Below the pieces are notes generated by a model, which was not told the origin of the DNA, searched no databases, and saw nothing but the letters and a program-made list of their open reading frames with translations. Shown piece after piece: positions 4,958 to 56,768 of a stretch of 64,000 bases of DNA. The translations under genes and the position numbers were made by a program. The DNA is from Candidatus Handelsmanbacteria bacterium (lineage in GTDB: Bacteria; Latescibacterota; UBA2968; UBA8231). Each line of letters opens with the position of its first letter. Position 1 is the stretch's first letter. The stretch is taken from positions 1-64,000 of the forward strand of contig VGJS01000014.1 in NCBI GenBank assembly GCA_016867395.1, written 5' to 3'.

Positions 4958-5143
4958 CCGGGTGTGCCCTGGAGGTGTCTCCCGGGGAGTGGCCAGGCAG
5001 GGCAGGACGCGGGAGGAGTGGGGTGGTGATCGGAGCCGCAACGCCCCGCGTTATAGGGCGTTGCGGGGGAAGGGTTGCGGGTGAGGGCTAGCGAGCGGGG
5101 CGGCGAGTCAGCGCCTTGGGAGACACCGGAAGGGCATTCCCGG
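4958..5143 (+). repeat. Dispersed structured repeat R1 (with hairpin module)
   Basis: A member of the eight-copy intergenic repeat family. Outer arms are 4958-4970 and 5131-5143 (11 of 13 positions pair). The inner arms ggtgtctccc (4974-4983) and gggagacacc (5118-5127) pair perfectly. An extra perfect 9-bp hairpin lies at 5038-5064 (gcaacgccc / gggcgttgc). The core shared with other copies includes gctagcgagc and gcgccttggga. It fills most of the gap between argS and the next gene; no gene is seen in it. Confidence 0.85.
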
Positions 5144-5208
5144 CACGATACCTTCCCACCCTGGAAACACTGAAGGGGCGACCCCGGAGCGCCCGCGAGG
5201 AAAAGCTG

Positions 5209-5373
5209 ATGACACCGAAAAAACTCCGGTGCGATACCTGCGGCAAGGAGACCGACCAGTTGCGCCGCGACGTGGTGGACCAGGGGTACAACGCCCTCAA
5301 CAAGACCCCGCTGTGGAATTGCGAGACGTGTTACGAGAAGAAACGCGCCCAGCGGCAGGAGCCGCCCCGGTGA
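5209..5373 (+). CDS. Small zinc-ribbon protein
   Basis: A 54-residue protein with two CxxC pairs, CDTCGKE near the N terminus and CETCYEKK near the C terminus, spaced as in a single zinc-binding ribbon. The ATG at 5209 follows gaggaaaagctg, a plausible ribosome site; longer upstream in-frame starts would run through repeat R1 and are rejected. Its TGA overlaps the GTG start of aroK, so the two are translationally coupled. The function is unknown; ribbons of this size usually bind nucleic acid or protein. Confidence 0.75.
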   Translation: MTPKKLRCDTCGKETDQLRRDVVDQGYNALNKTPLWNCETCYEKKRAQRQEPPR

Positions 5374-5918
5374 AAGGCCCCATCTTTCTCACCGGCTTCA
5401 TGGGCACCGGCAAGACCAAGATCGGCCGGCTCCTGGCCCAACGCCTGGGCCGGGTCTTTCTCGACACCGACCACCTCATCGAGGAACAGGCCGGCAAGAG
5501 GATCCCCCAGATCTTCGCCGCCCAGGGGGAGGCCGCCTTCCGCCAGTTGGAGCACCAGTGCCTGGCCGAGGCCGCGGCCCGCGCCAACGCGGTGGTCGCC
5601 CTGGGCGGGGGGGCCATTGCCCAGGAGCGCAACTGGGAATTGCTGGGCCGGGCCGGCGGGGTGGTGGTCTGCCTCCAGGCTTCGGTGGACACCATCCTCG
5701 ACCGGGTCAGCCGCAAGGAGGATCGGCCCCTGCTGGCCGGCCTCAACCCCCAGGAGAAACGCGCCAAAATCGAGCGCCTGCTGGCCGAGCGCGCCCCCTT
5801 CTACGCCCGGGCCGATGTCCAGTTCGACACCAGCGACCACCTGGACCCCGAAACCACCGCCCTTCGCCTAGCCCAGACCCTGGAACAATGGGATGCAGAC
5901 CATCGCCCTGGCCCTTGA
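5370..5918 (+). CDS. aroK: Shikimate kinase
   Basis: Phosphorylates shikimate to shikimate-3-phosphate in the aromatic amino acid (chorismate) pathway. The 182-residue length is normal. It has the P-loop GFMGTGKT (residues 9-16), the shikimate-binding FLDTDHLIE, the GGGAI strand-turn and the lid region RKEDRPLL. The start is the GTG at 5370 that overlaps the TGA of the preceding gene; it leaves no unneeded N-terminal extension. The 3' end overlaps aroB by 26 bases, so the three genes form one translational unit. Confidence 0.95.
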   Translation: MKGPIFLTGFMGTGKTKIGRLLAQRLGRVFLDTDHLIEEQAGKRIPQIFAAQGEAAFRQLEHQCLAEAAARANAVVALGGGAIAQERNWELLGRAGGVVVCLQASVDTILDRVSRKEDRPLLAGLNPQEKRAKIERLLAERAPFYARADVQFDTSDHLDPETTALRLAQTLEQWDADHRPGP

Positions 5919-6990
5919 GCCCCACCCCTACGCCATCCACGTGGGGCACGGGGTGCTCTCCCGCCTGGGAGCCTTGTGCCGGGAGGCGGGCCTGGGCCGG
6001 CAGGTGGCCCTGGTCACCGACCACACCGTGGCCGGCCTGCACCTGGCCCCCGCCGCCGCCAGCCTGCGGGAGGCCGGCTTCGCGGTGACCGAGGTGCGTA
6101 TCGCCGGCACCGACGCGGCCAAGCACCTGCGCACCGCCGAGGAGGTCTTTGGCCGGTTGATCGAGGCCGGCCTGGATCGCCGGGCCTGGGTCCTGGCCCT
6201 GGGCGGGGGGGTGGTGGGGGATCTGGCCGGCTTCGTGGCCGCCACCTTCCTGCGCGGCATCCCCTTTGTGCAGGTGCCCACCACCATCGTCTCCCAGGTG
6301 GACGCCAGCATCGGCGGCAAGACCGGGGTCAACCACCCCCTGGGCAAGAACATGATCGGCGCCTTCCACCAGCCCCGCCTGGTGTGCATCGACACCGCGC
6401 TCCTGCGCACCCTGCCCCGCCGCGAGCTGGTGGCCGGAATGGCCGAAGTGGTAAAACACGCCCTGATCCGCGACGCGGAGCTTTTCTCGCTGCTGGAGCG
6501 GGATATCGAGCGGATCGTCGGCCTGGAACTCAGCCCCGACGAACTGGATCAGCTCATCGCCGCCAACGCCCGCATCAAGGCCGAGGTGGTGGCCGCTGAC
6601 GAGAAGGAGAGCGAATTGCGGGCCCTCCTCAACTACGGCCACACCATCGGCCACGCCATCGAATCGGCCAGCCAGTACGGGTACCTGCACGGGGAGGCCG
6701 TGATCCTGGGCATGATCGGAGCCGGGGAACTGGCGGTGCAGCGGGGGATGTGGCCGGCCCCTGAGCGCCAGCGCCAGGACGCGCTGCTGGCGCGGCTGGG
6801 CATCCCCGCGGGCCTGTCGCGCCTCTCCGCCGACCTCATCGTCGAACGCACCCGCGCCGACAAGAAACGCCTGGAGGGCCGGCACCGCTTTGTCCTGCCC
6901 CGCCGCATCGGCCAGGTGGAGATCATCGACGGCATCAGCGACGGGGAGGTACAAGCCGCCGTCGCCTACATCCAACACCAACACCCGTGA
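5893..6990 (+). CDS. aroB: 3-dehydroquinate synthase
   Basis: Converts DAHP to 3-dehydroquinate, the second step of the shikimate pathway, using NAD and a divalent metal. The 365-residue protein has the glycine-rich ALGGGVVGDLAGFVAATFLRG-type segment, the KTGVNHP loop, and metal-ligand regions in MAEVVKHALI, NYGHTIGHAIE and LHGEAV. It overlaps aroK and is followed five bases later by rimO, so aroK, aroB and rimO are likely co-transcribed. Confidence 0.96.
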   Translation: MQTIALALEPHPYAIHVGHGVLSRLGALCREAGLGRQVALVTDHTVAGLHLAPAAASLREAGFAVTEVRIAGTDAAKHLRTAEEVFGRLIEAGLDRRAWVLALGGGVVGDLAGFVAATFLRGIPFVQVPTTIVSQVDASIGGKTGVNHPLGKNMIGAFHQPRLVCIDTALLRTLPRRELVAGMAEVVKHALIRDAELFSLLERDIERIVGLELSPDELDQLIAANARIKAEVVAADEKESELRALLNYGHTIGHAIESASQYGYLHGEAVILGMIGAGELAVQRGMWPAPERQRQDALLARLGIPAGLSRLSADLIVERTRADKKRLEGRHRFVLPRRIGQVEIIDGISDGEVQAAVAYIQHQHP

Positions 6991-6994
6991 AGCC

Positions 6995-8473
6995 ATGAGC
7001 CAGTCCAACCCCCCCAAGGTCCACCTGGTCAACCTCGGCTGCCCCAAGAACCTGGTGGACTCGGAGAAGATGAGCGGCCTGCTCCAGGGCAATGGCTACG
7101 TGCTGACCGCCGACCCGGAACAGGCCGACGTGGTGGTGGTCAATACCTGCGGTTTCATCGGGCCGGCCAAGGAGGAATCCATCCAGGCCATCCTCGAAGC
7201 CAACCGCCTTAAGGAGGAGGGCCGGGTCCGGGCGGTGATCGCCACCGGCTGCCTGGCCCAGCGCTACCAGGAGGAATTGCAGATCGAGCTGCCCGAGGCC
7301 GACCAGATCCTGCCCCTGGCCGAGGAGGCCCACATCGCCGCGCATGTGGACCGCGCCCTGGGCCGGACCCGCGACCATTACCTCGACAGCGCCCCCAGAG
7401 CACAGCTGACCCCGCGCCACTGGGCCTACCTGCGCATCTCCGACGGCTGCGACCACCAGTGCGCCTTCTGCGCCATCCCCGGCATCCGCGGCAAACACCA
7501 CAGCGAGCCCATCGACAAACTGGTGGAGGAGGCCCGCCGCCTGGCCGATGGCGGGGTACGCGAGCTGGTGCTGGTCTCCCAGGACTCGGTGCGCTATGGG
7601 GCCGACCTGTACGGCCGGGCCCAACTGGTGCCACTCATGGAGCAGTTGGCGGATATCCCGGACATCGCGTGGCTGCGGCTCATGTACACCTATCCGGCCT
7701 TCTGGACCGGGGAAATGATCGCCCTCTTCGCCAATCACCCCAAGGTCTGCAAGTACATCGACATGCCCCTGCAGCACATCGCCGACCCGGTGCTGCGGCG
7801 CATGAAGCGGGCCACCACCCGGCAAAAGACCCTGGACCTCCTGGCCGATTTGCGCGAACGCATCCCCGGGGTGGGACTGCGTTCTTCTTTCATCGTGGGG
7901 TTTCCGGGGGAAACAGAGGCGCAGTTCGAAGAATTGCTGGAATTCGTCGCACAGACCCGCTTTGACTACGCCACGGCCTTCATCTACTCGCCCGAGGAGG
8001 GCACCTCCGCCTACAAACTAGACGGGGAGATGGATGAAGAGACCAAGGCCGAACGCTACCGCCTCCTCACCGAGTTGCAGGAGCGCATCTCCGGCGAACG
8101 CAACCACGCTCTGGTGGGCACATCCCAGATCGTACTGGTGGATGAGCGCACCCCCGAGGGCCAGCACCTGGGCCGCATGGAGCGCGACGCCCCCGAGATC
8201 GACGGCCAGGTGCTGATCGAGGGTCCGGCCGAGCCAGGGCAGTTCATCGAGGTGGAGATCACCGGCGCCGCCCCCTACGAACTGAATGGCCGAGTATTGG
8301 CCCCACAGCGGCGGGGAGATGACCCCATAGGGCTTTCCCGGGGAGTGGCTGGGAAGGGAAGTTCGCGGGATGGGTTGCGGGGAGAGCGGAGCCAGAGCGA
8401 GCAGGGCGGGAAGGACGCGCCTTGGGAAAGCCCGGAGCGGGTCGCTCCCCGACGCGACGGAGTGCAACCATGA
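6995..8473 (+). CDS. rimO: Ribosomal protein uS12 methylthiotransferase RimO, with repeat-derived tail
   Basis: A radical-SAM enzyme that methylthiolates an Asp of ribosomal protein S12. It has an N-terminal UPF0004 domain with three cluster Cys (NLGCPKNLVDSEK, NTCGF, TGCLAQRY), a radical-SAM core with CDHQCAFC (Cys152, 156, 159), and a TRAM domain ending at about residue 433. The start at 6995 matches the family start, five bases after aroB. The family should stop near residue 435, but the frame continues about 55 codons through repeat R2 to a TGA that overlaps the next ATG. The tail is Arg/Gly/Ser-rich and unlike any RimO domain. It may be harmless or may be removed. Confidence 0.95.
   Translation: MSQSNPPKVHLVNLGCPKNLVDSEKMSGLLQGNGYVLTADPEQADVVVVNTCGFIGPAKEESIQAILEANRLKEEGRVRAVIATGCLAQRYQEELQIELPEADQILPLAEEAHIAAHVDRALGRTRDHYLDSAPRAQLTPRHWAYLRISDGCDHQCAFCAIPGIRGKHHSEPIDKLVEEARRLADGGVRELVLVSQDSVRYGADLYGRAQLVPLMEQLADIPDIAWLRLMYTYPAFWTGEMIALFANHPKVCKYIDMPLQHIADPVLRRMKRATTRQKTLDLLADLRERIPGVGLRSSFIVGFPGETEAQFEELLEFVAQTRFDYATAFIYSPEEGTSAYKLDGEMDEETKAERYRLLTELQERISGERNHALVGTSQIVLVDERTPEGQHLGRMERDAPEIDGQVLIEGPAEPGQFIEVEITGAAPYELNGRVLAPQRRGDDPIGLSRGVAGKGSSRDGLRGERSQSEQGGKDAPWESPERVAPRRDGVQP
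8308..8456 (+). repeat. Dispersed structured repeat R2 (inside rimO 3' end)
   Basis: Outer arms gcggggagatgacccc (from 8311) and gggtcgctccccgacgc (to 8455) pair imperfectly. Inner arms gggctttccc (8330-8339) and gggaaagccc (8424-8433) pair perfectly. The copy lies wholly inside the open frame of rimO and ends just before the downstream DUF971 start. Confidence 0.85.
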
Positions 8474-8799
8474 ACAAGAAAAGACCCGCCGAGATCGGCC
8501 TGAGCGACACCGAGCTGGCCATCCGCTGGCAGGACGGCAGCGAGAACCGCTACTCTCTGCAAGAGCTGCGCCGCAACTGCCCCTGCGCCCAGTGCCGCGC
8601 CCTGCGCGAGGAACCCGGGGTGCAAGCGCCGCCCGCGCCGGGCCCCCTCGAACTGCCCATGCTCAACGACACCGCCGCCAGCGCCACGGCCAGGGCCGCC
8701 GGCTGGGAGCTGGTGGGCCGCTACGGTTTGCGCCTCACCTGGGCCGACGGCCACGACCACGGCATCTACACCTTCGAGTACCTGCGCGAAGAGGGCTGA
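8470..8799 (+). CDS. DUF971 (GBBH-like N-terminal domain) protein
   Basis: A 109-residue protein of the DUF971 family, the domain also found at the N terminus of gamma-butyrobetaine hydroxylase. The hallmark NCPCAQCRAL with clustered Cys sits at about residues 36-45, and the C-terminal half has the typical LTWADGHDHGIYTFEYLRE. Stand-alone members are often linked to iron-sulfur or metal handling, but no reaction is established. The ATG at 8470 overlaps the rimO stop (ATGA). Confidence 0.88.
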   Translation: MNKKRPAEIGLSDTELAIRWQDGSENRYSLQELRRNCPCAQCRALREEPGVQAPPAPGPLELPMLNDTAASATARAAGWELVGRYGLRLTWADGHDHGIYTFEYLREEG

Positions 8800-8802
8800 G
8801 GC

Positions 8803-9993
8803 TCAGTCAAAGAAGTCCCCGTCCTCCTCCCGCAGGTACTTCCGCGCCGCTTTCTCGTTCAGCTCGATCCCCATCCCTGGCCTGTCCCACACCTCGATGA
8901 AGCTGTCCCTGACGATGGGATCGGGCACGCCATCCACAATATCGTACCACCACTCGGGCCGGCCCGTGGGATACTCGAAGGCGATGTAGTTCTGCGGCAT
9001 GGATGCCGCCACCTGCACCAGCGCCGCCAACCCAAGCAAACCATTGCCCGTGCCGTGCGGGGCCATCAGGATGCCGTGCAGGTCGGCGTACTCGGCGATC
9101 CACTTCAGCTCGGCAATCCCACCCACATCGCAGGGGTCCGGCCCGACGATACTCACTGCCCGCTTCTCGATCAGCTCCTGAAAGTTCTGCCGCAGATAGA
9201 TCTGTTCGCCGGTGTGGATGGGTGTGGTGGTGCTCCGCGTCACCTCGCGGTACATATCGGCCTGCACATAGGGGGTGTAGTCGCCGGTGAGCATGTCCTC
9301 CAGCCACATCACGTTGAAGGGCTCGACGGCCCGGGCCAGGCGGATGGCATCTGGCACGGTCCAGCCCGGCCCGCAGTCCAGGGCCAGGCCCACCTCGTCC
9401 CCCAGCACCTTCTTCATCGCCTCGATGCAGGCGACGATGTGCTTGAGGCCCTGCTCGGTCAACAAGCCGCGGGTGTGGTAGGGGCTACCGCTGCGTACCT
9501 CCCCGTACATGTAGTTGGGCACCTCCTGGGGCATCGAGCTGTGGAAGGCGATGCCTTGCTTGATGATGCTGAACTTCTCCGGGCTCTCCTTCATCCGCTG
9601 CATGTTCTCGGCGTGGGCCTGGGACGAGGAGCCGGCCATGGGGAAACGCACCGCCCCGTTGTACACCCGCACCCGGTCGCGCACCTTGCCACCCAGCAGC
9701 TTGTACACCGGCATTCCGGCAGCCTTGCCAGCCAGGTCCCACAGGGCCATCTCGATGGCGCTCACCGCGCTGCCCCAGGGCTTGAAGCTGCCCAGCTTGC
9801 GGATCTTGAGCATGACCCGCTCCACATCGGTGGGGTCCTCACCCAGGATATATTGCTTGTAGTAGAGCACGTGGGGCTTGAGGTAGGGCTTGCTGGCCTC
9901 CACCTCGCCGTAGCCGCACAGTCCAGCGTCGGTGGTGATGCGGACCACGGGGTTCTGGCCGATGACTGCGCACTTCAGATCGGTGATCTTCAT
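8803..9993 (-). CDS. Enolase-superfamily enzyme (mandelate racemase/muconate lactonizing group)
   Basis: A 396-residue member of the mandelate racemase/muconate lactonizing subgroup, which abstracts the alpha-proton of a carboxylate, commonly in sugar-acid dehydration or racemisation. It has an N-terminal capping domain and then a TIM barrel with metal ligands in LALDCG, MWLEDM and HTGEQI, and a His in MAPHGTG at the end of the barrel. Substrate cannot be read from the sequence; sugar-acid dehydratase is the likeliest guess given the sugar-catabolic content elsewhere in the window. It is convergent with the DUF971 gene (three-base gap). Confidence 0.9.
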   Translation of the reverse strand: MKITDLKCAVIGQNPVVRITTDAGLCGYGEVEASKPYLKPHVLYYKQYILGEDPTDVERVMLKIRKLGSFKPWGSAVSAIEMALWDLAGKAAGMPVYKLLGGKVRDRVRVYNGAVRFPMAGSSSQAHAENMQRMKESPEKFSIIKQGIAFHSSMPQEVPNYMYGEVRSGSPYHTRGLLTEQGLKHIVACIEAMKKVLGDEVGLALDCGPGWTVPDAIRLARAVEPFNVMWLEDMLTGDYTPYVQADMYREVTRSTTTPIHTGEQIYLRQNFQELIEKRAVSIVGPDPCDVGGIAELKWIAEYADLHGILMAPHGTGNGLLGLAALVQVAASMPQNYIAFEYPTGRPEWWYDIVDGVPDPIVRDSFIEVWDRPGMGIELNEKAARKYLREEDGDFFD

Positions 9994-10078
9994 CGCTTAT
10001 CGCCTTTCTGGTGAACAATGGAAACCTGCGCTGACGGCCTCAGCTTAGGCACACGCCGCACCCAGGTCGAGCTGCCCC

Positions 10079-10108
10079 TTGGCATTGTTCGACCCCCCAG
10101 TGTATATT
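10079..10108 (+). promoter_or_regulatory. Sigma70-like promoter
   Basis: ttggca (10079-10084) and tatatt (10103-10108) are separated by 18 bases and lie 35 bases upstream of the start of the small secreted protein at 10143. Confidence 0.5.
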
Positions 10109-10142
10109 GCACCGGCCAATGCTTTCCAGGGAGGATTTTGCC

Positions 10143-10412
10143 ATGAAGCATCTTGTGTTCTTGTTCAGCCTCGGCCTTTGCTCCTGGGCCGCGGCCCAGG
10201 AGCCGCCCCTCAACCGCACCCCGGAGGACGACTCCACCTTTGGCCGTTTCACCGAGCGCTACGAATACGACCACAACCTGCCCCTGCACGCCAAGGTGCT
10301 GGACACCCGCATCTACAACAAAGAGCAGCTCTGGCAGGAGTGCGAGCACGTGATCCTGGTCGAGGACCAGAAGCAGATCAGCCTGCCCTGGCTGGAGAAG
10401 TACCTTCGCTAG
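10143..10412 (+). CDS. Small secreted protein of unknown function
   Basis: An 89-residue protein with a signal peptide (MKHLVFLFSLGLCSWAAAQE; cleavage expected after AAAQ or AAA). The mature part is about 70 residues, charged, with RIYNKEQLWQECEHVILVEDQ and no recognised domain. The start at 10143 has gggaggattttgcc upstream; an earlier ATG at 10107 lies almost on the promoter. Its 3' end overlaps the convergent heptose adenylyltransferase by 35 bases. Confidence 0.6.
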   Translation: MKHLVFLFSLGLCSWAAAQEPPLNRTPEDDSTFGRFTERYEYDHNLPLHAKVLDTRIYNKEQLWQECEHVILVEDQKQISLPWLEKYLR

Positions 10413-10911
10413 CGCCGGGCTGCCCGGTGCGGATGGCCTCGACCAACCCGGTGGTCGAGTACCCGGGAGAGAAAGGCAGGATGCGGATCTGCCCGCCGCC
10501 CCGGCGTATCACCTCGGCCTCGGGAAGGTCCTCGGCAATGTAGTCGCCCCCCTTGCAGTGGATGTCGGGCCGCAGCCGGGCCAACAACTCGTTGGCCCGC
10601 ACCTCTTCGAAGACCACCACCTCGTCCACGCAGCGCAGGGCCGCCAGCATGGCGGCCCGGTCCTCCTGGGAGCGCAGGGGCCGGTCTGGCCCCTTGAGCC
10701 GGCGCACCGAATCGTCGCTGTTGAGGCCCACAATCAGCAAATCCCCCTGGCTGCGGGCCTGCTGCAAGAAGCGTACATGGCCGGGGTGCAAGAGGTCGAA
10801 GCAGCCGTTGGTGCTGACCACCACCCGCCCCTCCTCGCGCCAGGTCTGCCGCCCTTGCAGGAGTTCGTCCAGGGGTCGGGGACCGGCGGGGGTCCAGACA
10901 AAGGCCGCCAT
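10378..10911 (-). CDS. rfaE2: D-glycero-beta-D-manno-heptose 1-phosphate adenylyltransferase
   Basis: A 177-residue nucleotidyltransferase with TNGCFDLLHPGHVRFLQQ (HxGH motif HPGH) and LKGPDRPLRSQEDRAAML. It makes ADP-heptose from heptose-1-phosphate for outer-membrane or surface glycans. Only the adenylyltransferase half is present; the kinase half (HldA/RfaE1) must be elsewhere. It starts immediately after the stop of the GT2 gene, so it is the last gene of the minus-strand glycan cluster. Confidence 0.9.
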   Translation of the reverse strand: MAAFVWTPAGPRPLDELLQGRQTWREEGRVVVSTNGCFDLLHPGHVRFLQQARSQGDLLIVGLNSDDSVRRLKGPDRPLRSQEDRAAMLAALRCVDEVVVFEEVRANELLARLRPDIHCKGGDYIAEDLPEAEVIRRGGGQIRILPFSPGYSTTGLVEAIRTGQPGASEGTSPARAG

Positions 10912-11736
10912 CTAAGCCAACCTGTCAAAGAGCTTCAGGAGCAGGGCGCAGCGCCGGCCCCGCCAAGGGCCGTAGTGTTTGCACATGAAGGCGCTGCGGC
11001 TCTGGCGCATCCAGCCCTTGCGCCGGCCAGGGTCCACTGGCGTCTTGTTGTGATAATGGTACAATTTGGATTGCGGGACATAGAGGACTTTGTACCCTGC
11101 CTGCCGCGCCCGGTAGCACAGGTCCACGTCCTCATAGTACATGAAGAAGGTCGTCCCATCCCAGCCGCCAGCCCGATCCAGGGCCTCGCGCCGTATCCAC
11201 AGCGCCGCCCCAGTCACCCAGTCCACACCCCGCTCCTGCTCGTATCCCAGGAAATGCCGTTGGGAGAAGCGCTCCAGGAGCGGCCGGAGCGCAGGCAATG
11301 ACTGGAGCAGGCGGTCGATGGCAATACTGGTCAGGGTAGGGAAACGCCCCATCGAGCGCTCGACCTCACCTGCGCTATCCAGGAGCCGGCTGCCAAAGAC
11401 CCCGCACTCAGGATGCCGCGCCATCACCTCCAGCATGGCCCGCAGGCTGCCGGGGGGCGCCTCGGTGTCGGGATTGAGAAAGAGCAACAGGGGCGCGCTG
11501 CTGGCTAGGGCGCCGGTGTTGTTGTTGGCGGCAAAACCCTGAGGCTGCGCGTTGCAGACCAGCGTCACCTCGGGGAACTGCTCGCCCACCAGCTCGGCGC
11601 TGCCGTCGTCGGAACCGTTCTCGACCACGATAACCTCCGCCGGAACCTCCGGGTGGGCCCGCAGCGAGCCCAGGCACTGCCCCAGCCACTGCCGGGCCTT
11701 GTGGCTGACGATAATGATGGAGAGATCGGGAGTCAT
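10912..11736 (-). CDS. Family 2 glycosyltransferase (rhamnosyltransferase-like)
   Basis: A 274-residue GT-A fold enzyme. The N-terminal DLSIIIVSHKARQWLGQCL, VIVVENGSDDGSAELV and LLFLNPDTE (DxD-type motif) are typical of family 2 enzymes that build O-antigen or other surface glycans. The later part has WVTGAALWIRREALDRAGGWD and FFMYYEDVDLCYRARQAG. There is no membrane anchor. Repeat R3 separates it from the flippase upstream; it abuts rfaE2 downstream. Sugar specificity cannot be read. Confidence 0.9.
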   Translation of the reverse strand: MTPDLSIIIVSHKARQWLGQCLGSLRAHPEVPAEVIVVENGSDDGSAELVGEQFPEVTLVCNAQPQGFAANNNTGALASSAPLLLFLNPDTEAPPGSLRAMLEVMARHPECGVFGSRLLDSAGEVERSMGRFPTLTSIAIDRLLQSLPALRPLLERFSQRHFLGYEQERGVDWVTGAALWIRREALDRAGGWDGTTFFMYYEDVDLCYRARQAGYKVLYVPQSKLYHYHNKTPVDPGRRKGWMRQSRSAFMCKHYGPWRGRRCALLLKLFDRLA

Positions 11737-11759
11737 GTTCGTTTAGAGTCGCGTGGAAA

Positions 11760-11909
11760 GCGGCGGGGAGATGACCCCCGAGAGCTTTCCCTGGGTAGTG
11801 GCTGAGCGGGGAAGTCCGCGTGGCAGGGTTGGGAGGTAGCGGAGCTTCGCGAGCGAGGGGGAAAGGACGTGCCTTGGGAAAGCTCGGAGTGGGTCACTCC
11901 CCGATGCCA
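11760..11909 (+). repeat. Dispersed structured repeat R3
   Basis: Outer arms are 11761-11778 and 11891-11908. Inner arms gagctttccc (11782-11791) and gggaaagctc (11876-11885) pair perfectly and differ from R2 by a compensating pair. Both flanking genes are on the minus strand, yet the repeat has the same + orientation as all other copies. Confidence 0.85.
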
Positions 11910-11913
11910 CATA

Positions 11914-13392
11914 TCAACCATCGCGTCGCTCCGCCAGGAGCCGGCGCACTTGAGCCACACTCTCGGCGATTTGCTGCCGCTCCAGCAACCCCACCACCCC
12001 CGCGTAGATCCCCACCATCAGGGCACTGCGCAGTATAAAGTCCACCAGGGCCTGGCCCTGGGCCACGGCGCTGTACCCCAACCCAGCGAGGGCGGCCAGG
12101 CCCAGCCCCAGCAGCGGGGCCCCAAAGATACTGGGCCACGACACCTCCGCGTAGCGCCGCACCCCCCAGCACAGACTGACCAACCCCCGCCCCCCCCCCC
12201 CTCCCATGCTGTAGGCCACCCCCCGAATTCCCCACTGCCAGGCCATGAAGGGCACCAGCAGCCCGGCCACTAGCGCCTGCAACCCCATGAGTTGCGCGCT
12301 CAGCCGGGTGCTACCCACCGCCCACAGGAGCCCGAAGCAGTCGTCCATCAGCGGGCGCAGGAAGGCGTACCCGGCCAGCCACACGATCATCGCCGCTGAT
12401 TCCGCCCAGTTGGGGTTGGTCAGCGCGATCACCTCGCGGGCATTGAGCACCAGCACCAGGGCCAGGGGCCAGGAGATCCATACCTCCAGGCTGAGCATGC
12501 GCGAGAAAACCTCGCTCAGGCGCGGCCGGTCGTGTTGGTAGCGGGCATACAGGGTGCTGGTGTAGTTGAAGATGATGTGGGTGAGGATCGCCGTGGGGAT
12601 CTGCACCCAGAACCAGGCGTTTTCGTACAGGGCCACCTCGTCCCCGCCCACCACCAACCCCACCACCAGCTTGTCGTACCACAACACGAAGGTCTGGAGC
12701 ATCCAGCCCACCCAGATCCACACCCCGTACCCCAGCAGGCGCCGGGTCCATTCCGGGTCCAGGTGCAGGCGGCCAAAACCCTGGGGCCGGCTCAGGCCCA
12801 CGGCCCCGGAGTAAAAGCAGGTGTAGACTAGGCTGAACACCGAGTAGGTGGTCCAGCCACCCAGGATCAGGCTCCACATCCCCCAGCCGGCCCAGGCCGC
12901 CCCCAGCGCCCCCACCAGCGACAGCACCGTGCCCAGGCCGTGGAAGAGGGAGAGCCGGCCGAACTCCAGGTCCAGGCGCAAGAGGCCCTCGGCGGTGAGG
13001 GTGAGGTTGCGCAGGAAGAAGAGCAGGGAGAAGGCGCCGGCCACCAGCGCGACCTCGGCGCTGAACCTCTGCGGCCACCAGTGGTGCAGACCCCAGAGCG
13101 CCAGGAGGGCTCCCAGCAGGGTCAGGCCGCAGATGAGCAGGTTGAGGGTGAAGTGGGTCTGGAGGAAGGCGCCGGTCTTGTCCTGGAAGTGCAGCAGACC
13201 GTACATCAGCCCGAACTCCCGCGGGCTGGCCAACAGAATGAAGAGGGTCACGCCGAAGACCGCGTCGGCAAAGACCGAGGGGGGCAGTTCGCGCCGGATC
13301 AGCACCGTGAGCGCCACGCTGGCCAGCCGGGCCAGGTATCCGCTGCCCAGGGTGTAGAGAAACCCCTTGAGGAGTTTCTGCGGGGCGCTCAT
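11914..13392 (-). CDS. Polysaccharide flippase (Wzx/MATE-like) with G12 tract
   Basis: A 492-residue integral membrane protein with about 12-14 hydrophobic segments, of the polysaccharide-biosynthesis (Wzx-like) exporter type that moves lipid-linked glycan units across the inner membrane. The ATG at 13392 overlaps the stop of the YfhO-like gene by four bases; a longer in-frame opening upstream is only read-through of that gene. Coding-strand positions 12201-12190 are 12 consecutive G, giving GGGGG in a predicted membrane/loop region; a one-base slip would truncate the protein by about 90 residues. The C terminus ends in a charged segment (RRLLAERRDG). Confidence 0.85.
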   Translation of the reverse strand: MSAPQKLLKGFLYTLGSGYLARLASVALTVLIRRELPPSVFADAVFGVTLFILLASPREFGLMYGLLHFQDKTGAFLQTHFTLNLLICGLTLLGALLALWGLHHWWPQRFSAEVALVAGAFSLLFFLRNLTLTAEGLLRLDLEFGRLSLFHGLGTVLSLVGALGAAWAGWGMWSLILGGWTTYSVFSLVYTCFYSGAVGLSRPQGFGRLHLDPEWTRRLLGYGVWIWVGWMLQTFVLWYDKLVVGLVVGGDEVALYENAWFWVQIPTAILTHIIFNYTSTLYARYQHDRPRLSEVFSRMLSLEVWISWPLALVLVLNAREVIALTNPNWAESAAMIVWLAGYAFLRPLMDDCFGLLWAVGSTRLSAQLMGLQALVAGLLVPFMAWQWGIRGVAYSMGGGGGRGLVSLCWGVRRYAEVSWPSIFGAPLLGLGLAALAGLGYSAVAQGQALVDFILRSALMVGIYAGVVGLLERQQIAESVAQVRRLLAERRDG

Positions 13393-15863
13393 GTGGGGGA
13401 GAGGACGCGCCCTCTCCGCCAGTCCCAGATCCCTACCCCGACCACCGCCAGCAGGCTCAGCAGCGCGGCCCAGCGCGAGAGGGAGACCACCCGCGAATGG
13501 TAGCGCAATTCCACCTGGTGCTCCCCGGCCGGCAGGTACACCGCCTGCCACACGTAGTTGGCCCGCAGGAGCCGGGTGGGCTGGCCGTCCACGGTGGCCT
13601 GCCAGTTGGGGAAGAAGTTCTCGGCGATCAAGAGCAGACGCGGCCCCTGGGAGCGGGTCCTGAGCGAGACCCGGCCCCCGGCCAGGTCGTAGACCTGCCG
13701 CTCCACCTGGTCCTGGGCCGGATCACCCTCGCCGCTGAGGGCTCCGGGCGGCTCCTCTTCGAGCAAGACCCTGCGCCGCAAATCCACCTTGCCCTCCACC
13801 AGCAGGGCGAAAGCCTCGTCCTGGGACACCACCTGCCCCTCTGGCACCAGGCTGTGCCAGGGCAGGGCCGTGGGGTTGTCGTAGAGCAGGTACTGCTCGC
13901 CCTTGAAGGCCAGGGGGAAGGCGGGTGAGTTGAATTCGATGCCGCCGGGCGCGGCGATGTACCGGGCGCTCAAGAGATTCAGCAGGGGATGGACCGCCTC
14001 CAGCAACTGCTCGTCGCTGTAGGGCACCTGCTGGCCGCGATAGTACTTGGCCCCCAGGTACGCGCTGACCGGGGCGAGTTCCTGCAAAAGCCGGTCGTAG
14101 CGCTGCAAGGTGAAATCGTGGAAGCCGCTCACCCCAGGCACCCCGTACAAATGATACCCGGGGCTATCGAGGACGCTGTAGTCGGGCAGAGGGAAGACCC
14201 GCCAGAGCTGGCCGTCCTGCTTGATGAACTCGACGGTGCGCGGGTTCTCCTTGCGAATGTCGGTGTGGCGGGCGGGGTCCTCGTACTTGAGAAAGACCCG
14301 GTCGATGCGCCAGGTGTCCGCCAGGGTCAGGAGGATGAGTCCGGCCACCAGCCCGCCGGCGGCCAGCCGGCCCTGGCTGCGCAGGTAGAGCAGGCCCGTG
14401 CCCACCCCGGCCACCGCCGCCGCGATCAGGCTGCCCCGCGAGAGCCAGTCGAGCCCGGCTTCTAGGACCTGGCGTTTGGCCGGAGCGATGTCCCCATAAA
14501 AGAGCGAGATCCACATGCCCGTCATCGCGCCGGGGGCCAGGGCCAGGAGCAGGGCCAGGCCCGTCAACACCCCGCCGCACATGAGAAGGCGCCGATCCAG
14601 GCCGGCCTCGCCTTCGAGCAGGCAGTGCAGGCTGTGGGCCGCCAGCACACAGGCAGGGAAAGCAAAGAGAAAGGCGATCATGCCCGGGGTGCGCAGCACC
14701 TTGGCGCCGGGGGCCAGGTGGTAGAAGACCCAGTGCACCGGTGTGTGCGGCCCTACGGCGTAGCCCAGGGCAAAGAGAAAGAGCAACACCATGAACACCA
14801 GCCGGGGCTGCCCTTTCAGGCCGGGCAGGGCCAGCAGGGCCAAGAGCACCACCAGGATGCCGAAGTACTCCGAATTGAGCTTGAGGGCATTGCGGCCCCA
14901 GTAGTAGTTCTGGTTCTCCTTGGGATCGGCAAAGCCCCCGAACTCCGGCACCAGGAGCGAGCCCACCTCCTCGGGGTGCAGGGCCCAACTGCGGGCGAAT
15001 TCGAGCTGCTCCTCCGGGCTGCGGCCTTGCTCACCGGCCGCCCGCTTGGATTCGCTGCGGGTGTAGAAGAAGGAGGGGAAAAGCCCCTCGGCGCCCACCC
15101 CCAGGCCAAGGGCAATGGCCAGGGCAAAGAGGCCGGCGCGTTGGCCCAGGACGGGTCTGGGAGTGCCGGCGCGGTAGAGGTGGTAGAGTTTGAAGAGCAG
15201 GTAGAAACTCGCCCCCCACAGCGCGTAGTAGAGCATCTGGAGGTGCGGGGAGTAGATGCCGGCGGCCACCAGCAGGGCCAGACCCGCAAAGTACAGGGGC
15301 CGGCCCTCGTCCATCCCCCGTTCGATCATCAGCCCCATCAGCGGGAAGAGGGCGATCACCGCCATCTTGGCGTAGTGGCCGGCGTACGGGAAGGCCAGGA
15401 AGGTGGGCGCCGACATGTAGGCGACGCCGGCCCATAGCGCCGCGTTGCGGCTTATCCCCAGCCGGCGCAGGTACAGGTACATGGCCAGGCCGGCCAGGAA
15501 AACGGTCAGGATATAGCGCCAGCCGATGTGCCGCTGGAAGGTGGTGAACAGGTACCCCACAAAGGTGGGGAAGTACTGCCAGCGCAGGCCCTCGCCCTCG
15601 GGGAAGCCGCCCATGCGCTCGCTCCACATCGGCTGGGCCAGTTCTCCCAGCTTGGCCCCCAGCGAGGTCTCGCCCCGGTGGTAGTCGGTGCCGACATCGC
15701 TGCCAAAGACGATCTTGCCCGAGAAAATGAATTCGGAGAAATAGACCAGACTCAAGAGCAGGAATAGAGCCGCCGGGAACCAGGGCCGGTGCCAGAGGGA
15801 GATGCCCGGATCAATCGCCGCTGCGCTAGTAGGGGCTGCCAGCCCCGTGGCCTTCTTGGCCAT
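13389..15863 (-). CDS. YfhO-like multi-spanning membrane protein (GT-C type)
   Basis: An 824-residue membrane protein of the YfhO kind. An N-terminal cytosolic stretch and first membrane helix (LFLLLSLVYFSEFIF) are followed by a luminal loop with GSDVGTDYHRGE and many membrane helices to about residue 490. A large C-terminal extracytoplasmic region then includes a beta-sandwich with SQGPRLLLIAENFFPNWQA and PAGEHQVELRYHS, closed by a last helix. YfhO proteins are associated with glycosylation of lipoteichoic acid or other surface glycans in lipid-linked-sugar pathways; here the role is inferred from the family and the neighbouring glycosyltransferases. One base separates it from the GT4 gene. 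Confidence 0.85.
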   Translation of the reverse strand: MAKKATGLAAPTSAAAIDPGISLWHRPWFPAALFLLLSLVYFSEFIFSGKIVFGSDVGTDYHRGETSLGAKLGELAQPMWSERMGGFPEGEGLRWQYFPTFVGYLFTTFQRHIGWRYILTVFLAGLAMYLYLRRLGISRNAALWAGVAYMSAPTFLAFPYAGHYAKMAVIALFPLMGLMIERGMDEGRPLYFAGLALLVAAGIYSPHLQMLYYALWGASFYLLFKLYHLYRAGTPRPVLGQRAGLFALAIALGLGVGAEGLFPSFFYTRSESKRAAGEQGRSPEEQLEFARSWALHPEEVGSLLVPEFGGFADPKENQNYYWGRNALKLNSEYFGILVVLLALLALPGLKGQPRLVFMVLLFLFALGYAVGPHTPVHWVFYHLAPGAKVLRTPGMIAFLFAFPACVLAAHSLHCLLEGEAGLDRRLLMCGGVLTGLALLLALAPGAMTGMWISLFYGDIAPAKRQVLEAGLDWLSRGSLIAAAVAGVGTGLLYLRSQGRLAAGGLVAGLILLTLADTWRIDRVFLKYEDPARHTDIRKENPRTVEFIKQDGQLWRVFPLPDYSVLDSPGYHLYGVPGVSGFHDFTLQRYDRLLQELAPVSAYLGAKYYRGQQVPYSDEQLLEAVHPLLNLLSARYIAAPGGIEFNSPAFPLAFKGEQYLLYDNPTALPWHSLVPEGQVVSQDEAFALLVEGKVDLRRRVLLEEEPPGALSGEGDPAQDQVERQVYDLAGGRVSLRTRSQGPRLLLIAENFFPNWQATVDGQPTRLLRANYVWQAVYLPAGEHQVELRYHSRVVSLSRWAALLSLLAVVGVGIWDWRRGRVLSPT

Positions 15864-15864
15864 C

Positions 15865-16995
15865 TCAGTTGTCCTCGCGTCGGTTCGCTGCCGCTGCTCT
15901 CAGGTACACTTCTTCCTGGTCCCGGGCGATCTGCTCCCAGTCGAAGCGCCCCGCCCACACCCGCCCCTCTTTTCCCAGGCGCTGCCGCAGCTCGGGCTGG
16001 TCGAGCAACTGCCGCATCCCCTGGGCCAGGGCCCCGGGCTGGCCGGCCTCCACCAGCAGGCCCGTCTCTCCCTCGCGCACCGCGTCGCGCAGACCGCTGA
16101 CCCGGGTGCCCAGCACCGCCTTGCAGGAAGCCTGGGCCTCCGCTGCGGCGATGCCCCAGCCCTCGTAGCGCGAGGGCATGCAGGCGAAGAGAGCCTGGCG
16201 GAGCAGCTCGCATTTCTGCGCCTCGTCCACCGCGCCTAATAGTTCCACGCGGCCTTCGACGCCGGCCTGGCTGATGAGCCGCCGCACCTGCGCCACCGCC
16301 TCAGGGGTGCCGCGTCCAGCCACCTTCAGTTGGACCTGAGGGTACTGAGGCGCCACCTGGGCGTAGGCCGCGATCAGGGTGTCTAGGCCCTTGGTGTGGA
16401 CATCCATACGCCCGAAGTAGAGCAGATACGGCTCCTCCTCCGGCTCCAGGCCAAAGTACCGGGCATCGACGCCGGTGTACACGCAGTCGATCTGCACCTG
16501 GCGCTCTCCTAGGCGGTGCCGCACCTCCTCCTGCACGCTGGGGGAGATGGTCACGATGTTGGCGTACCGCCGCAGGGTGAGGGCTTCGGCCGCCCAGGCG
16601 ACCCCGCCCACCAGCGGGTGCTTAACCAGGGCGTGGGCCCCGACGAAGTGATAAAAAAATAGCAGGCCCCGCCGCCGCAGCCGCGCCTCGGGCCACAGGG
16701 GCGCAAAGGCCGAGAACTCGTGTACCCACACCTCCCATTCCTGGCGGCGCAGGCAGGCCAGGGCCTGGCAGCAGTAGCTGAGCCGGCTGCGGGCATAGCT
16801 GGCGTCCGACCCCACCCGCAGGAAGCGCACCCCATCCGCCACCTCTTCGCGGGCCGCCCCAGGAAAGTGGCCGGTGACCACTGTGACCTGGTGGCGGCCA
16901 GCCAGCCGGCGGTAGATCTCCCGGGCCCGCAGCGCCCCACCGCCCCCCAGCCAGGGGTTTTTTACGTCGTCGTAGATCAGGTGGCAGATCTTCAC
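15865..16995 (-). CDS. Family 4 (GT-B) glycosyltransferase
   Basis: A 376-residue GT-B glycosyltransferase. The N-terminal acceptor domain begins MKICHLIYDDVKNPWLGGGG, and the C-terminal donor domain has LLYFGRMDVHTKGLDTLI, the EX7E-like region in SRYEGWGIAAAEAQA, and GLLVEAGQPGALAQGM. It transfers a sugar from a nucleotide donor to a growing surface glycan. It is the first gene of the minus-strand cluster GT4, YfhO-like, flippase, GT2, rfaE2. The next gene upstream belongs to the degraded region, so the promoter should lie in 16996-17069. Confidence 0.92.
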   Translation of the reverse strand: MKICHLIYDDVKNPWLGGGGALRAREIYRRLAGRHQVTVVTGHFPGAAREEVADGVRFLRVGSDASYARSRLSYCCQALACLRRQEWEVWVHEFSAFAPLWPEARLRRRGLLFFYHFVGAHALVKHPLVGGVAWAAEALTLRRYANIVTISPSVQEEVRHRLGERQVQIDCVYTGVDARYFGLEPEEEPYLLYFGRMDVHTKGLDTLIAAYAQVAPQYPQVQLKVAGRGTPEAVAQVRRLISQAGVEGRVELLGAVDEAQKCELLRQALFACMPSRYEGWGIAAAEAQASCKAVLGTRVSGLRDAVREGETGLLVEAGQPGALAQGMRQLLDQPELRQRLGKEGRVWAGRFDWEQIARDQEEVYLRAAAANRREDN

Positions 16996-17069
16996 GGGGG
17001 TATTTGTTGTACCGGGTTGCCTGAAGAGTGATACAGTTCCGTGGGTAGAACCAATCTGAGCCTTTCCAC

Positions 17070-17539
17070 CTACATGCGCGCCAGTGCTCCGGTAGATGGG
17101 TATTTCCCCACCCCGATCAAGGTCCGCCGCTCCAGAAGGCGGTCACTGTGGTTGAACCCCAAAATACGCGCAGTGACCTCCCCAACATTGGTTTGCGGTT
17201 GGATAACCACCCCTTCCAGTCTGAAGTGCATTCCCCATCGGTCTATGCGCGGATTAAAGAATCGGCAGAATCCGCCAGTCCCAATCAAGACCGAGCCTAC
17301 ATCACTGCCCTTCTGGCGATTGCAGAACATACAGGCATACGCCAAGTTGTCCGCCTCTGTTGACCCGCCGTGCTTCACACTGATAATGTGATCGACCTCG
17401 CAACCAAAGAAGGTGGCCTCTTCGTGTATCAAGCAGTATTCACAGAGGTATTCCGCACGACTTGCGAGCAGTATTCACAGAGGTATTCCGCACGACTTGC
17501 GATCAGACTTCGAAGTCCTTCGCTGATATAGCTAGGCAT
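17070..17539 (-). pseudogene. HNH endonuclease, frameshifted by a 35-bp tandem duplication
   Basis: The 3' part encodes a clear HNH nuclease (CEVDHIISVKHGG, DNLAYACMFCNRQKGSD). The start MPSYISEGLRSLIASRAEYL lies at 17539 and reads to EYC, where a perfect 35-bp tandem duplication (17433-17502) throws the frame. Removing one unit restores a 144-codon gene in one frame. It overlaps the 3' end of the preceding 80-residue gene by eight bases. HNH proteins of this size occur in mobile and defence loci. Confidence 0.85.
17433..17502. repeat. Perfect tandem duplication, 2 x 35 bp
   Basis: Units 17433-17467 and 17468-17502 are identical. The unit length is not a multiple of three, which disrupts the HNH gene. 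Identity of the copies suggests a recent slip, or an assembly artefact. Confidence 0.95.
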
Positions 17540-17774
17540 TGGCAAGGTGCAGGCGAGCGCCTGCCTTGGCCAACCTCATGAGATGTTCCAATTGCAGATA
17601 GTGCTCTAGCTCCGACTTTTCTTCAGGTGAAAGGCTACTGTTTTTCTCTCTGGCAACCAACTCTGCCACACGGTCTTTCACCCCTTCAGATGGGTGAAAG
17701 CTGATCACCCCGCTCGGGCTCGTTCCAGCCGCGATAAACTCAACGACTTCCTTATAGGCTTTCAGGGTGCTCAT
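17532..17774 (-). CDS. Small helical protein paired with HNH endonuclease
   Basis: An 80-residue protein, helix-rich and charged (MSTLKAYKEVVEFIAAGTSP near the N terminus, KSELEHYLQLEHLMRLAKA near the C terminus). Similar short proteins are found directly upstream of small HNH genes in other bacteria, often in mobile or toxin-antitoxin-like loci; that recollection is family-level, not checked. A ribosome site (aaggagttgcgcg) precedes the ATG at 17774. It overlaps the start of the broken HNH gene. It is intact although its partner is not. Confidence 0.65.
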   Translation of the reverse strand: MSTLKAYKEVVEFIAAGTSPSGVISFHPSEGVKDRVAELVAREKNSSLSPEEKSELEHYLQLEHLMRLAKAGARLHLANA

Positions 17775-17793
17775 CGCGCAACTCCTTCGTATG

Positions 17794-18045
17794 TCACTGC
17801 CCTTTAGCTATCTTGACTCTCACCTCTTTCGACCTGCCCAGCAGGGGAAAGAAGTTTCTCGGTGGACAACCGCGGACCGCCAGATTAAGGTCCGAACCCT
17901 TGCGAATCCGGCCTTCAGCAACAGAGCCGAATACATGGACCTCCTGGCATCCTCCTTCTCTCAGGATCTGCACCGCGCGCTCGATATCCGCTCTGTATGC
18001 CTTTGGAAAGGTCTCCAGTATTGATGCAGAGCCCTTGCCCGCCGC
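17794..18045 (-). pseudogene. Fragment of a minimal nucleotidyltransferase (MNT-type)
   Basis: An open frame without a usable start reads ILETFPKAYRADIERAVQIL, then VFGSVAEGRIRKGSDLNLAV, the active-site strand of small nucleotidyltransferases that usually pair with HEPN toxins. The second catalytic Asp of the DxD motif is Asn (DLN). After PRNFFPLLGR the family sequence is lost and the frame ends at 17794-17796. The 5' end has no ATG, GTG or TTG behind a ribosome site. It is a fossil of a toxin-antitoxin module. Confidence 0.7.
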
Positions 18046-18093
18046 CGAAAAATGTCCCCTCGCCGCTATCTTGCCCCTCGCTCCTCTGATCGC

Positions 18094-18192: not shown

Positions 18193-18203
18193 GCCTCCAT
18201 CCG

Positions 18204-18740: not shown

Positions 18741-18798
18741 CCTGCTCCTACCTCCGCTTTTTTCTAGATTGAATCCCACGCGCTCACCACTCGATACC

Positions 18799-27377: not shown

Positions 27378-27382
27378 CACCG

Positions 27383-27530
27383 CGGCGGGGAGATGACCCC
27401 GGAGGTCTCTCTCGGGGAGCGGTAGGGTAGGGAAGACCGCGTGGTGGGGCGGCGAGGGAGCGGAGGGATAGCGAGCGAGGGGGCACGGCCCGCCTTGAGA
27501 GAGACCGGAGCGGGTCGCTCCCCGACGCCA
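27383..27530 (+). repeat. Dispersed structured repeat R4
   Basis: Outer arms are 27384-27400 and 27512-27529. Inner arms ggtctctctc (27404-27413) and gagagagacc (27497-27506) pair perfectly with a sequence different from R1-R3, i.e. several compensating changes. It lies between rdgB and the creatininase-family gene. Confidence 0.86.
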
Positions 27531-36695: not shown

Positions 36696-36700
36696 GAAGG

Positions 36701-36841
36701 CGGCGGGGAGATGACCCCGGAGGCATTTGCCAGGGGAGTACCTGGGAAGGGAAGGACGCGGGAAGGGGTGAAGGGAGACAGACCGAGCGGGGTGGCAAGT
36801 CCGCGCCTTGGGAAAGGCCGGAGGGGGTGACTCCCCGACGT
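36701..36841 (+). repeat. Dispersed structured repeat R5
   Basis: Outer arms are 36701-36718 and 36825-36840. Inner arms ggcatttgcc (36722-36731) and gggaaaggcc (36810-36819) pair with two mismatches. It lies between the TIM-barrel gene and a broken PhyH gene. Confidence 0.83.
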
Positions 36842-38369: not shown

Positions 38370-38387
38370 GTTGAACGTCCGCAATAG

Positions 38388-38534
38388 TGGCGGGGAGTGA
38401 GCCCCGCAGGCATTTCCCAGGGAAGTGGCCGAAAAGGGAAGTCCGCGTGGTGGGGCTGTGGGCTAGCGGAGCGACAGCGAGCGGGGGTAAAGGACGCGCC
38501 TTGGGAAAGGCTGGAGCGGGCTGCTTCCCTACGC
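38388..38534 (+). repeat. Dispersed structured repeat R6
   Basis: Outer arms are 38388-38405 and 38518-38534. Inner arms ggcatttccc (38409-38418) and gggaaaggct (38503-38512) pair with one mismatch and a G-T. It lies between the tRNA terminator and the dehydrogenase gene. Confidence 0.83.
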
Positions 38535-53254: not shown

Positions 53255-53294
53255 CTTCAGTCCTCAGGAAGCCCGCAGTGGCGGAGATACAGCC

Positions 53295-53494
53295 ACGCGG
53301 CGGGGAGACGGCCCCAGAGACCTTTCCTGGGGGGCAAAAGGGGTGGGGAGGACGCGGGTGAAGAGGTGGGGAGAGCGGAGCTGCAACGCCCCACCGTATG
53401 GGGCGTTGCGGGGGTGGGGTGGCAGGGCCAGGCTAGCGAGCAGGGCTGCAAGTCCGCGCCTGGGGAACGGTCGGAGTGGGCTGCTCCCCGCCGC
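53295..53494 (+). repeat. Dispersed structured repeat R7 (with hairpin module)
   Basis: Outer arms are 53295-53314 and about 53477-53494. Inner arms gacctttcct and ggggaacggtc (from 53461) pair imperfectly. It holds the extra hairpin as a perfect 11-bp stem (53382-53392 and 53398-53408, five-base loop). Flanking genes are both on the minus strand. Confidence 0.85.
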
Positions 53495-53612
53495 GCTCTG
53501 TAGGACTGACCAGGGATGGCCGGCGAGCGTCAAAGACCGCCAATCCGAAGGATTGAGCGCCATGAGCGAAGGGGCCCACTTCCCGCCGCACCCAAGGGAA
53601 ATCGCTCCACTC

Positions 53613-55744: not shown

Positions 55745-55892
55745 GGTCCCCTCCTGGGGGTGTGCTACGGGGGGCAAAAGGATGCCGCAAACCTACTGAG
55801 CACCCGCGCAGACTGTCAAGAAGAGCAAGGAGTACGCGGTTGATATGGACTGTCGCGCCGCGTACCTTATCCTCCCCTGGCGAAAGGACCCC

Positions 55893-56645
55893 ATGCGCCA
55901 CACCCGCCTCAATCCGCTGCCCGCCACCACCCCTGCCCCGGTCTTTCCCGGCCTGGAGATGGCCTCGGCCTGGGGGGAGCTGCAGTACCTGGTTTTGCCC
56001 GCCGGCGCACAGTGCGGGTCTTCCGCGGCACCCGACCGCGAAGTGGGGTACATACTGTTAGGGGGCGCCATTGACCTGGAAGGGCCGGACCTCGGAGCGC
56101 AGTTCGAGGGTCCTACAGCCCTGCTCTGTGGGGTGGGTTGGCCGCACACCCTGGCCAATGCCGGCGCTGGCACGGCCCAGCTTCTGCGCTTCAGCGCCGC
56201 GCTCCAGGGCAACGCCCCGGCGGCCCCCACATTCCGCGCCGAGTCCGTGGACCAGGCCCGGCTAAAGTGGCGGCCGGCGATCCACGGGGGCGCCGGCCAG
56301 ATCGCCACCCGCCACATCTGGGGCCCCGGCGATTTTTCCAGCCCCTGGGTCTTTCTCGATCACGCGGTGTTGGCCCCTCAAAGCTCCCTGGGCTATCATT
56401 ACCACGACGCCCTCGAAGAGTGTTTTGTGGTGCTCAGCGGTCAGGGTTATATCACCATCTCTGATCAAACCCTGGCCGTGGGTCCCGGCTCCGTGACCTG
56501 GCAGGGCATCGGCCAGCCCCACGGCCTGTACAATTCCGGAGGTGAGCCTCTCGATTTCCTGCGCGTGGCCGTGGGCATCCGGGGCGAGCAATACACTACT
56601 ATTGACCTGAACGACAGCCTGCTCAAACGAAAGCCGAGTTCGTAG
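55893..56645 (+). CDS. Two-domain cupin (bicupin) protein
   Basis: A 250-residue protein with two cupin folds. The second has the fuller metal motif (GYHYHDALEECFVVLSGQGY and PGSVTWQGIGQPHGLYNSGG); the first (QYLVLPAGAQCGSSAAPDRE, VGWPHTLANAGAGTAQLLRF) is degenerate. Bicupins may bind sugars or act as oxidases or isomerases. The start at 55893 is preferred to 55845. Repeat R8 starts right after the stop. Confidence 0.85.
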   Translation: MRHTRLNPLPATTPAPVFPGLEMASAWGELQYLVLPAGAQCGSSAAPDREVGYILLGGAIDLEGPDLGAQFEGPTALLCGVGWPHTLANAGAGTAQLLRFSAALQGNAPAAPTFRAESVDQARLKWRPAIHGGAGQIATRHIWGPGDFSSPWVFLDHAVLAPQSSLGYHYHDALEECFVVLSGQGYITISDQTLAVGPGSVTWQGIGQPHGLYNSGGEPLDFLRVAVGIRGEQYTTIDLNDSLLKRKPSS

Positions 56646-56649
56646 CGCC

Positions 56650-56768
56650 GGGGTGCAACGCCCCAACATATGGGGCGCTGAGGGGGTAGGGCAGCGGGGT
56701 CGGGCTAGCCAGCAGAGCGGCAAGTCCGCGCGTTGGGAGAGCCCGGAATGGGTCACGTCTCCGACGCC
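56650..56768 (+). repeat. Dispersed structured repeat R8, truncated at 5' end
   Basis: It keeps the hairpin module (arms from 56655 and 56671, one mismatch), the core gggctagccagc, the inner right arm gggagagccc (56734-56743) and the outer right arm (56750-56768). The left outer and inner arms are missing, and the copy begins next to the stop of the bicupin gene. Confidence 0.8.

Follow-up and report, generated by a model that had tools for sequence, protein, structure and literature searches.

Relation to known palindromic repeats

Correia/NEMIS, ERIC and similar MITEs are intergenic sequences of 100–200 bp with inverted ends that can be folded. The repeats described here share these features but, unlike such MITEs, are without target duplication, and their arms vary freely while pairing is kept. 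They occur in the window, the whole 64-kb stretch of DNA that was analyzed, which lies on contig C14 of a genome assembly of 4.94 Mb in 248 contigs (G000).

The repeats resemble REPINs and BIMEs, as portrayed in the excerpts of PMC3116915 and PMC2817692 cited here, in having two inverted conserved ends, a variable spacer and one long hairpin with compensatory changes, and in being high-copy, extragenic, near or overlapping gene ends, and mosaic. Compensatory changes are described for the spacer hairpins of REPINs in the same excerpt of PMC3116915; alignments, covariation and folds likewise placed inverted, tagged ends around a long-hairpin spacer in the present repeats. Their ends are GCGGC and GCGTC instead of the GTAG tag and REP palindrome, and no RAYT gene flanked by repeats was found in the five carrier genomes, the assemblies of which are incomplete. 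Unlike REPINs, the repeats are 147–260 bp long, contain nested additional hairpins and a purine-rich core that is asymmetric and conserved, and have no linked RAYT. They are also strongly replication-oriented, an orientation that does not appear in the cited part of PMC3116915.

CGTC-tagged REPs have stems of 8–9 bp with A–T at the first positions, loops of 4–5 nt and a CCA tail (PMC3733652). The repeats share with them a CGTC at one hairpin foot, the absence of a dedicated transposase and a location downstream of, and sometimes within, genes; here, however, the CGTC lies on the minus strand of the right arm, and both stem and loop differ from that definition (PMC3733652), the arm hairpin consisting of four G–C pairs and a 6-nt loop with the tag at one end only. 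IS200/IS605 elements and their non-autonomous derivatives are similar in showing no target duplication, hairpin ends and replication-linked orientation, and the first and last of these were found in the repeats, with GC skew as the proxy for replication. The IS200 elements of this genus differ, by eye, in their end sequences, and no shared ends were found. A likeness by description extends to the mitochondrial double-hairpin elements and GC clusters, which the cited part of PMC4478555 presents as short mobile GC-rich palindromes with an unknown mover, but these are organellar and shorter.

Integron attC sites can be set aside, as the ends read GCGGCG and GACGC(C) in place of the outer RYYYAAC/GTTRRRY core sites. 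No T run of an intrinsic terminator is present in the flanks, and a terminator scan of positions 1–20000 lists none in R1–R3. None of the copies had a significant match in Rfam 15; a permuted-tmRNA match overlapping R6 (E 0.69) falls below the gathering score. The first-pass annotation of this DNA had recognized no known RNA or REP class, which agrees with the Rfam result but not with the architecture, which is that of REPINs as far as the cited part of PMC3116915 describes it. The repeats are best read as a new orphan family of the REP/REPIN kind and are not placed in a named family, because neither the REPIN nor the CGTC REP definition describes them fully. Our preferred explanation, held with moderate confidence, is that they are non-autonomous mobile palindromic elements, REPIN/BIME-like in build, that move as single strands by means of an HUH/Y1-type enzyme acting in trans.

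Copies in the window and their anatomy

The positions of the copies are given in Table 1. The eight-copy family proposed earlier was recovered, all eight copies by profile and R1–R7 also by the covariance model. Seven of the eight (R1–R7) are complete elements with a length of ~147 bp, or 198 bp when an extra internal hairpin is present. R8 is below covariance-model significance, and the nhmmer profile matches its 3′ half alone; it is nevertheless a genuine 5′-degenerate member, because the orthologous site of congener G004 carries a complete copy. BLAST E-values between non-self copies reach 1e-48, which, together with 109 model matches genome-wide, excludes chance similarity.

Table 1. Repeat copies and associated features in the 64-kb window
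Feature	Position	Strand	Evidence	Remarks
R1	4953..5148	+	covariance model E 3e-7	long copy; variant outer arms; core carries inserted hairpin
MiaB-type radical SAM/TRAM gene	6995..8473	+	Pfam UPF0004, Radical_SAM, TRAM	
R2	8308..8455	+	model E 2e-26	full copy at 3′ end of radical SAM/TRAM gene
R3	11760..11907	+	covariance model	full copy
R4	27382..27528	+	BLAST and covariance model	full copy; anatomy reference
R4 outer left arm P1	27382..27400	+	alignment	GCGGCGGGGAGATGACCCC; tagged, REP-like mini-hairpin
R4 inner left arm P2	27404..27413	+	covarying 10-bp stem	GGTCTCTCTC
R4 inner right arm P2′	27497..27506	+	covarying 10-bp stem	GAGAGAGACC
R4 outer right arm P1′	27510..27528	+	alignment	GCGGGTCGCTCCCCGACGC; minus strand starts GCGTC
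R5	36700..36841	+	covariance model	full copy
R6	38387..38534	+	covariance model	full copy
R7	53297..53494	+	covariance model	long form, hairpin inserted; lies within a different palindromic repeat
Second palindromic element, right part	53495..53589	+	sequence	core with GACCAGGGATGGCCGGCGAG; interrupted by R7
R8	56644..56769	+	nhmmer, 3′ half only (56689-56769), E 4e-7	5′-truncated copy

In a typical copy of 147 bp, the outer stem P1 is formed by GCGGCGGGGAGATGACCCC with GCGGGTCGCTCCCCGACGC and is followed by a 3-nt bulge, the 10-bp inner stem P2 and the core, a segment of ~80–90 nt between the P2 arms that is 70% purine. Tagged, inverted REP-like outer arms (GCGGCGGGGAG...CTCCCCGACGC) flank a spacer whose inner arms pair too, and the element ends are GCGGC(G) and GCGTC / GACGC(C). 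Direct reading of the sites confirmed the perfect 10-bp inner stems reported for R1–R4. The common plan of outer arms, core and inner arms needed amendment, since the outer arms of R1 differ and the cores of R1, R7 and R8 have an extra hairpin.

The family is modular. The extra core hairpin of the long copies, of the CAACGCCCC..TATGGGGCGTTG type, is located at either of two positions, and is also found alone at orthologous sites of sister species. Elements with the same outer arms but wholly different cores exist, some of them bare hairpins of 38–43 bp, and R7 sits within an element of a second type. A second type of palindromic core, CTGAGCGGATT..CCTCGGAGCCGGCCAGGGATGGCCGGCGAGAATGAGCGAAGGGG, has the same outer arms and an own hairpin that apparently covaries; it is located at L220:505, L224:463, L226:433 and L233:690, and in L146 at the R7/R8 sites. 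Elsewhere in the own genome, two copies lie back to back in opposite orientations, 24 bp apart (L185:3001-3295, contig C12).

Covariation of the stems

Among 31 copies, 17 of 27 pairs were changed on both sides, compared with 8.7 in shuffles. With 114 copies, 349 cells carried two-sided changes, against 82 in shuffles, and every slid control collapsed; the covarying stems noted at first are thus strongly supported, outer and inner alike. In a scan of all column pairs of the alignment, the top covarying pairs were those of P2 and the innermost pair of P1. A short third helix in the core is possible from the distribution of motifs, GGAC/GTCC occurring in 20 copies, the swapped GTCC/GGAC in 19 and same-same combinations in only 3, although this pattern may merely reflect two subfamilies.

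Watson-Crick pairs make up 994 of the 1113 P2 cells, with 43 G–U and 22 A–C, and their dominance speaks no less for folded DNA or for templated correction than for RNA. The pairing is conserved best, if weakly, on the plus strand (inner-stem G–T 43 against A–C 22), which counts against our preferred explanation. The prevalence of full exchanges in the inner stem would also be expected if the covariation were a by-product of templated quasi-palindrome correction at replication and not of selection on folding. We regard this as possible but on the whole improbable, as conserved mismatches and asymmetries of the outer stem persist across copies, which indicates that the arms are not being homogenized. 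Such correction would bear only on what caused the covariation and is compatible with movement of the elements as single strands.

Distribution and mobility

The covariance model, trained on 31 copies, gave 109 matches in the own genome at E 0.01 or better (62 on the plus and 47 on the minus strand) and at least 49–67 in each of four congener genomes (G001–G004). Another 42 genomes from the class, 20 of the same family and 22 from outside it, gave no match with stricter filters. The search of the genome and its relatives, as proposed in the first-pass annotation, therefore outlines a family of the genus.

The window and the congeners are syntenic at the gene level, with 75–89% DNA identity. 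At the R1 site, the element is absent in G003 and G004, and G001 has only the small hairpin repeat. The R2 site is without the element in G001, G002 and G004, and the R5 site in G001 and G004. At the R3 site, G003 has a longer form and G002 an inverted copy, and the element is absent in G001 and G004. The R4 site is empty in G001 and G002, with a divergent member in G004 and a small hairpin in G003; R6 is absent in G001 and G004, and at its site G002 retains an arm remnant and G003 a related long element. Exact empty junctions cannot be written, because the flanking intergenic bases have diverged between the species, which counts against our preferred explanation. Judged from these comparisons, the repeats are mobile elements, since several window copies are missing at orthologous sites of sister species, one is inverted and one lies inside another repeat; the element-free sites bear out the mobile origin that had been raised as a possibility.

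The median nearest-neighbor identity between copies is 82% and the highest 90%, a divergence that counts against our preferred explanation and by which no recent movement is seen and the last burst was not recent. In 53 of the 109 copies an A precedes the element, and the bases that follow are C-rich. No match pointed to carriage by phages or plasmids; two matches to viral contigs were rejected as chance, no element being there.

No excess of direct repeats of 3 to 10 bp was found at the ends, with offsets allowed. This bears on a further account, in which the repeats are MITEs moved by a DDE transposase that recognizes the 11-bp outer inverted repeats. Inverted outer arms, high copy number, insertion differences and the lack of coding capacity would suit such elements. 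We consider this account very improbable, given the missing target duplication, the free variation of the outer arm sequence with pairing kept (R1 class) and the strong replication orientation, for which ordinary MITEs are, to our knowledge, not known.

Orientation relative to replication

GC skew was used as a proxy for replication direction in the fragmented assemblies. The plus orientation first reported for all copies holds for this contig, but not genome-wide (62 plus, 47 minus); in the window, the skew of the plus strand is negative throughout. Neighbors are nevertheless strongly concordant: of 58 pairs of adjacent copies on the same contig, 46 agree, where 29.4 are expected, a value reached in 0 of 5000 shuffles. 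Read along the element strand, the local skew has a negative sign for 96 of 107 copies of the own genome (P 4e-18), in 46 of 50 when one random copy per contig is taken (P 4e-10) and in 70 of 74 in regions of strong skew. The four congeners show the same in 35 of 40 (P 1e-6). The suggestion of a replication-oriented element was thus right in substance, with 90% agreement with the local skew.

In these cases, the G-rich plus strand of the element lies on the locally C-rich strand, and the minus, CGTC-tagged strand on the skew-positive one. The bias is not caused by composition, because the element is G-rich on the plus strand (core skew +0.45) and the bias runs opposite. In bacteria, the leading strand usually has positive GC skew; if this applies, the minus strand (5′ GCGTCGGGG) lies on the lagging-strand template. 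Two checks agree with this polarity. The IS200/IS605 family targets the lagging-strand template (PMC6006769), and the Y1 elements of this type in the same genomes have positive skew on the coding strand in 12 of 14 cases, opposite in sign to the repeats and in agreement with use of that template (PMC6006769). Secondly, the ribosomal L2 gene reads within a region of mostly positive skew.

The bias could also arise after insertion. Long palindromes at replication forks undergo hairpin-dependent deletion, and if insertion were random in orientation, copies with the more stable G-rich plus strand on the lagging template would be lost or selected against, and the survivors would look oriented. This is the main rival, because, as DNA, the plus strand is the one with the more stable fold (R4, −38.7 against −29.7 kcal/mol) and, in the orientation observed, it is not on the lagging template. 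We nonetheless hold orientation-dependent loss to be rather unlikely, as elements that share the outer arms but have other cores are biased likewise (13 of 16, with short flanks), and the IS200 elements show that an insertion-driven bias exists in these genomes.

Gene context

By the calls of a home-made gene caller based on a simple codon score, the copies are flanked by convergent genes in 34 cases, by tandem genes in 34 (forward) and 20 (reverse), and by divergent genes in 18. The median distance to the facing stop codon is 15–17 nt on the left and 9–10 nt on the right side. The preference for forward over reverse tandem genes (34 against 20) is not significant, in accordance with the independence from transcription direction that was originally claimed.

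R2 forms part of a gene. Translation of the radical SAM/TRAM gene runs through R2 to a stop beyond, so that R2 and its flank encode the last ~55 codons. The genes of the relatives stop before the R2 position, and most of the C-terminal extension of ~55 residues comes from R2.

Structured RNAs under transcript selection (3′ UTR stabilizers, bidirectional attenuators or small RNAs) would account for the covarying stems and the conserved asymmetric core with its possible third helix (20/19/3 combinations), the nearness to stop codons (medians of 9–17 nt), the frequent placement between convergent genes and the excess of G–U over A–C on the plus strand. Such a function is unlikely as the explanation of the family: the orthologous genes of sister species do without copies, no T tract follows the stem, Rfam has no match, wobble states are rare relative to full Watson-Crick exchanges, and the third-helix pattern may reflect merely two subfamilies. 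Of the initial claim that covariation implies selection on folded RNA or cruciform DNA, the covariation stands, but selection on a folded RNA is not borne out, wobbles being few, the terminator signature missing and the orientation preference relative to genes not significant.

Two further features were observed in the window. Near-identical direct repeats occupy its left end (1-2064; pairs 1-225/395-619 at 100%, 699-922/1558-1781 at 93% and 1321-1469/1916-2064 at 86%), which may be a transposase-like region that was duplicated or broken. The arginyl-tRNA synthetase gene at 3201-4934 was probably acquired horizontally, as the closest relatives found in named genomes (59–65% identity) suggest, which are mostly from Gammaproteobacteria, with other taxa too.

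Search for a transposase

Searches with PF01797 and a RAYT query linked no transposase to the repeats, and no Y1 match was obtained in G002 or G004; both results count against our preferred explanation. In the own genome, the Y1 matches belong to IS200 elements with ends that are, by eye, unlike the repeats. The only clear RAYT is that of G003, with none in the four other carriers (incomplete assemblies), and no repeat copy lies within 450 bp of it. A tandem array of ~24-bp units, CCCACTCTCCCAAAAGGCAAGGAG, open in frame, precedes a RAYT-like Y1 gene in G003 (L216:1-2251, contig C177).

RAYT/Y1 was rejected as a linked mover because of the mismatch of the IS200 ends and because one repeat copy has an IS200 element inserted in its outer arm (L023:274-970, own-genome contig C126). 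A search for the arm pattern gave 106 arms (61 + 45), compared with 19 in a reversed control. Inspection of 20 places turned up chance matches and short elements that have different cores, and no transposons; an autonomous element with the same arms was likewise rejected.

Proposed route of movement

Single-strand transposition of the HUH/Y1 kind fits the repeats because they combine tagged hairpin ends and replication polarity with turnover between species and no target duplication. IS200/IS605 elements transpose in this way, and the same has been proposed for REPINs. In the mechanism that we propose, two inverted, tagged REP-like outer arms enclose the spacer, and the loops accept further hairpin modules. 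With GC skew taken to mark replication direction, the elements would travel as single strands folded on the lagging-strand template, where a transposase of the IS200 or RAYT kind would cut and join them in trans. This enzyme may have been lost since, lie unlinked elsewhere or be missing from the assemblies. Afterwards, purifying selection would leave copies beside stop codons and mostly outside genes. An RNA role after insertion is possible, given the proximity to stop codons and the strong hairpin.

A more speculative variant, to which we give little credence, is a self-contained class of single-strand-mobile palindromes that would grow by taking up hairpin modules in one another's loops, that would enter the lagging template in one polarity and whose mover would be a host factor or an unlinked non-RAYT enzyme.

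With more than 100 copies in this genome and five related species, the repeats offer a large natural set for comparing directly how REP-like palindromes are inserted, how they are lost and how they are oriented to replication. Orphan REPs, the CGTC type among them, spread with no transposase of their own by a route that is still an open question (PMC3733652). For the present repeats, the strong orientation relative to replication, for which IS200 serves as the internal control, suggests a testable single-strand route.
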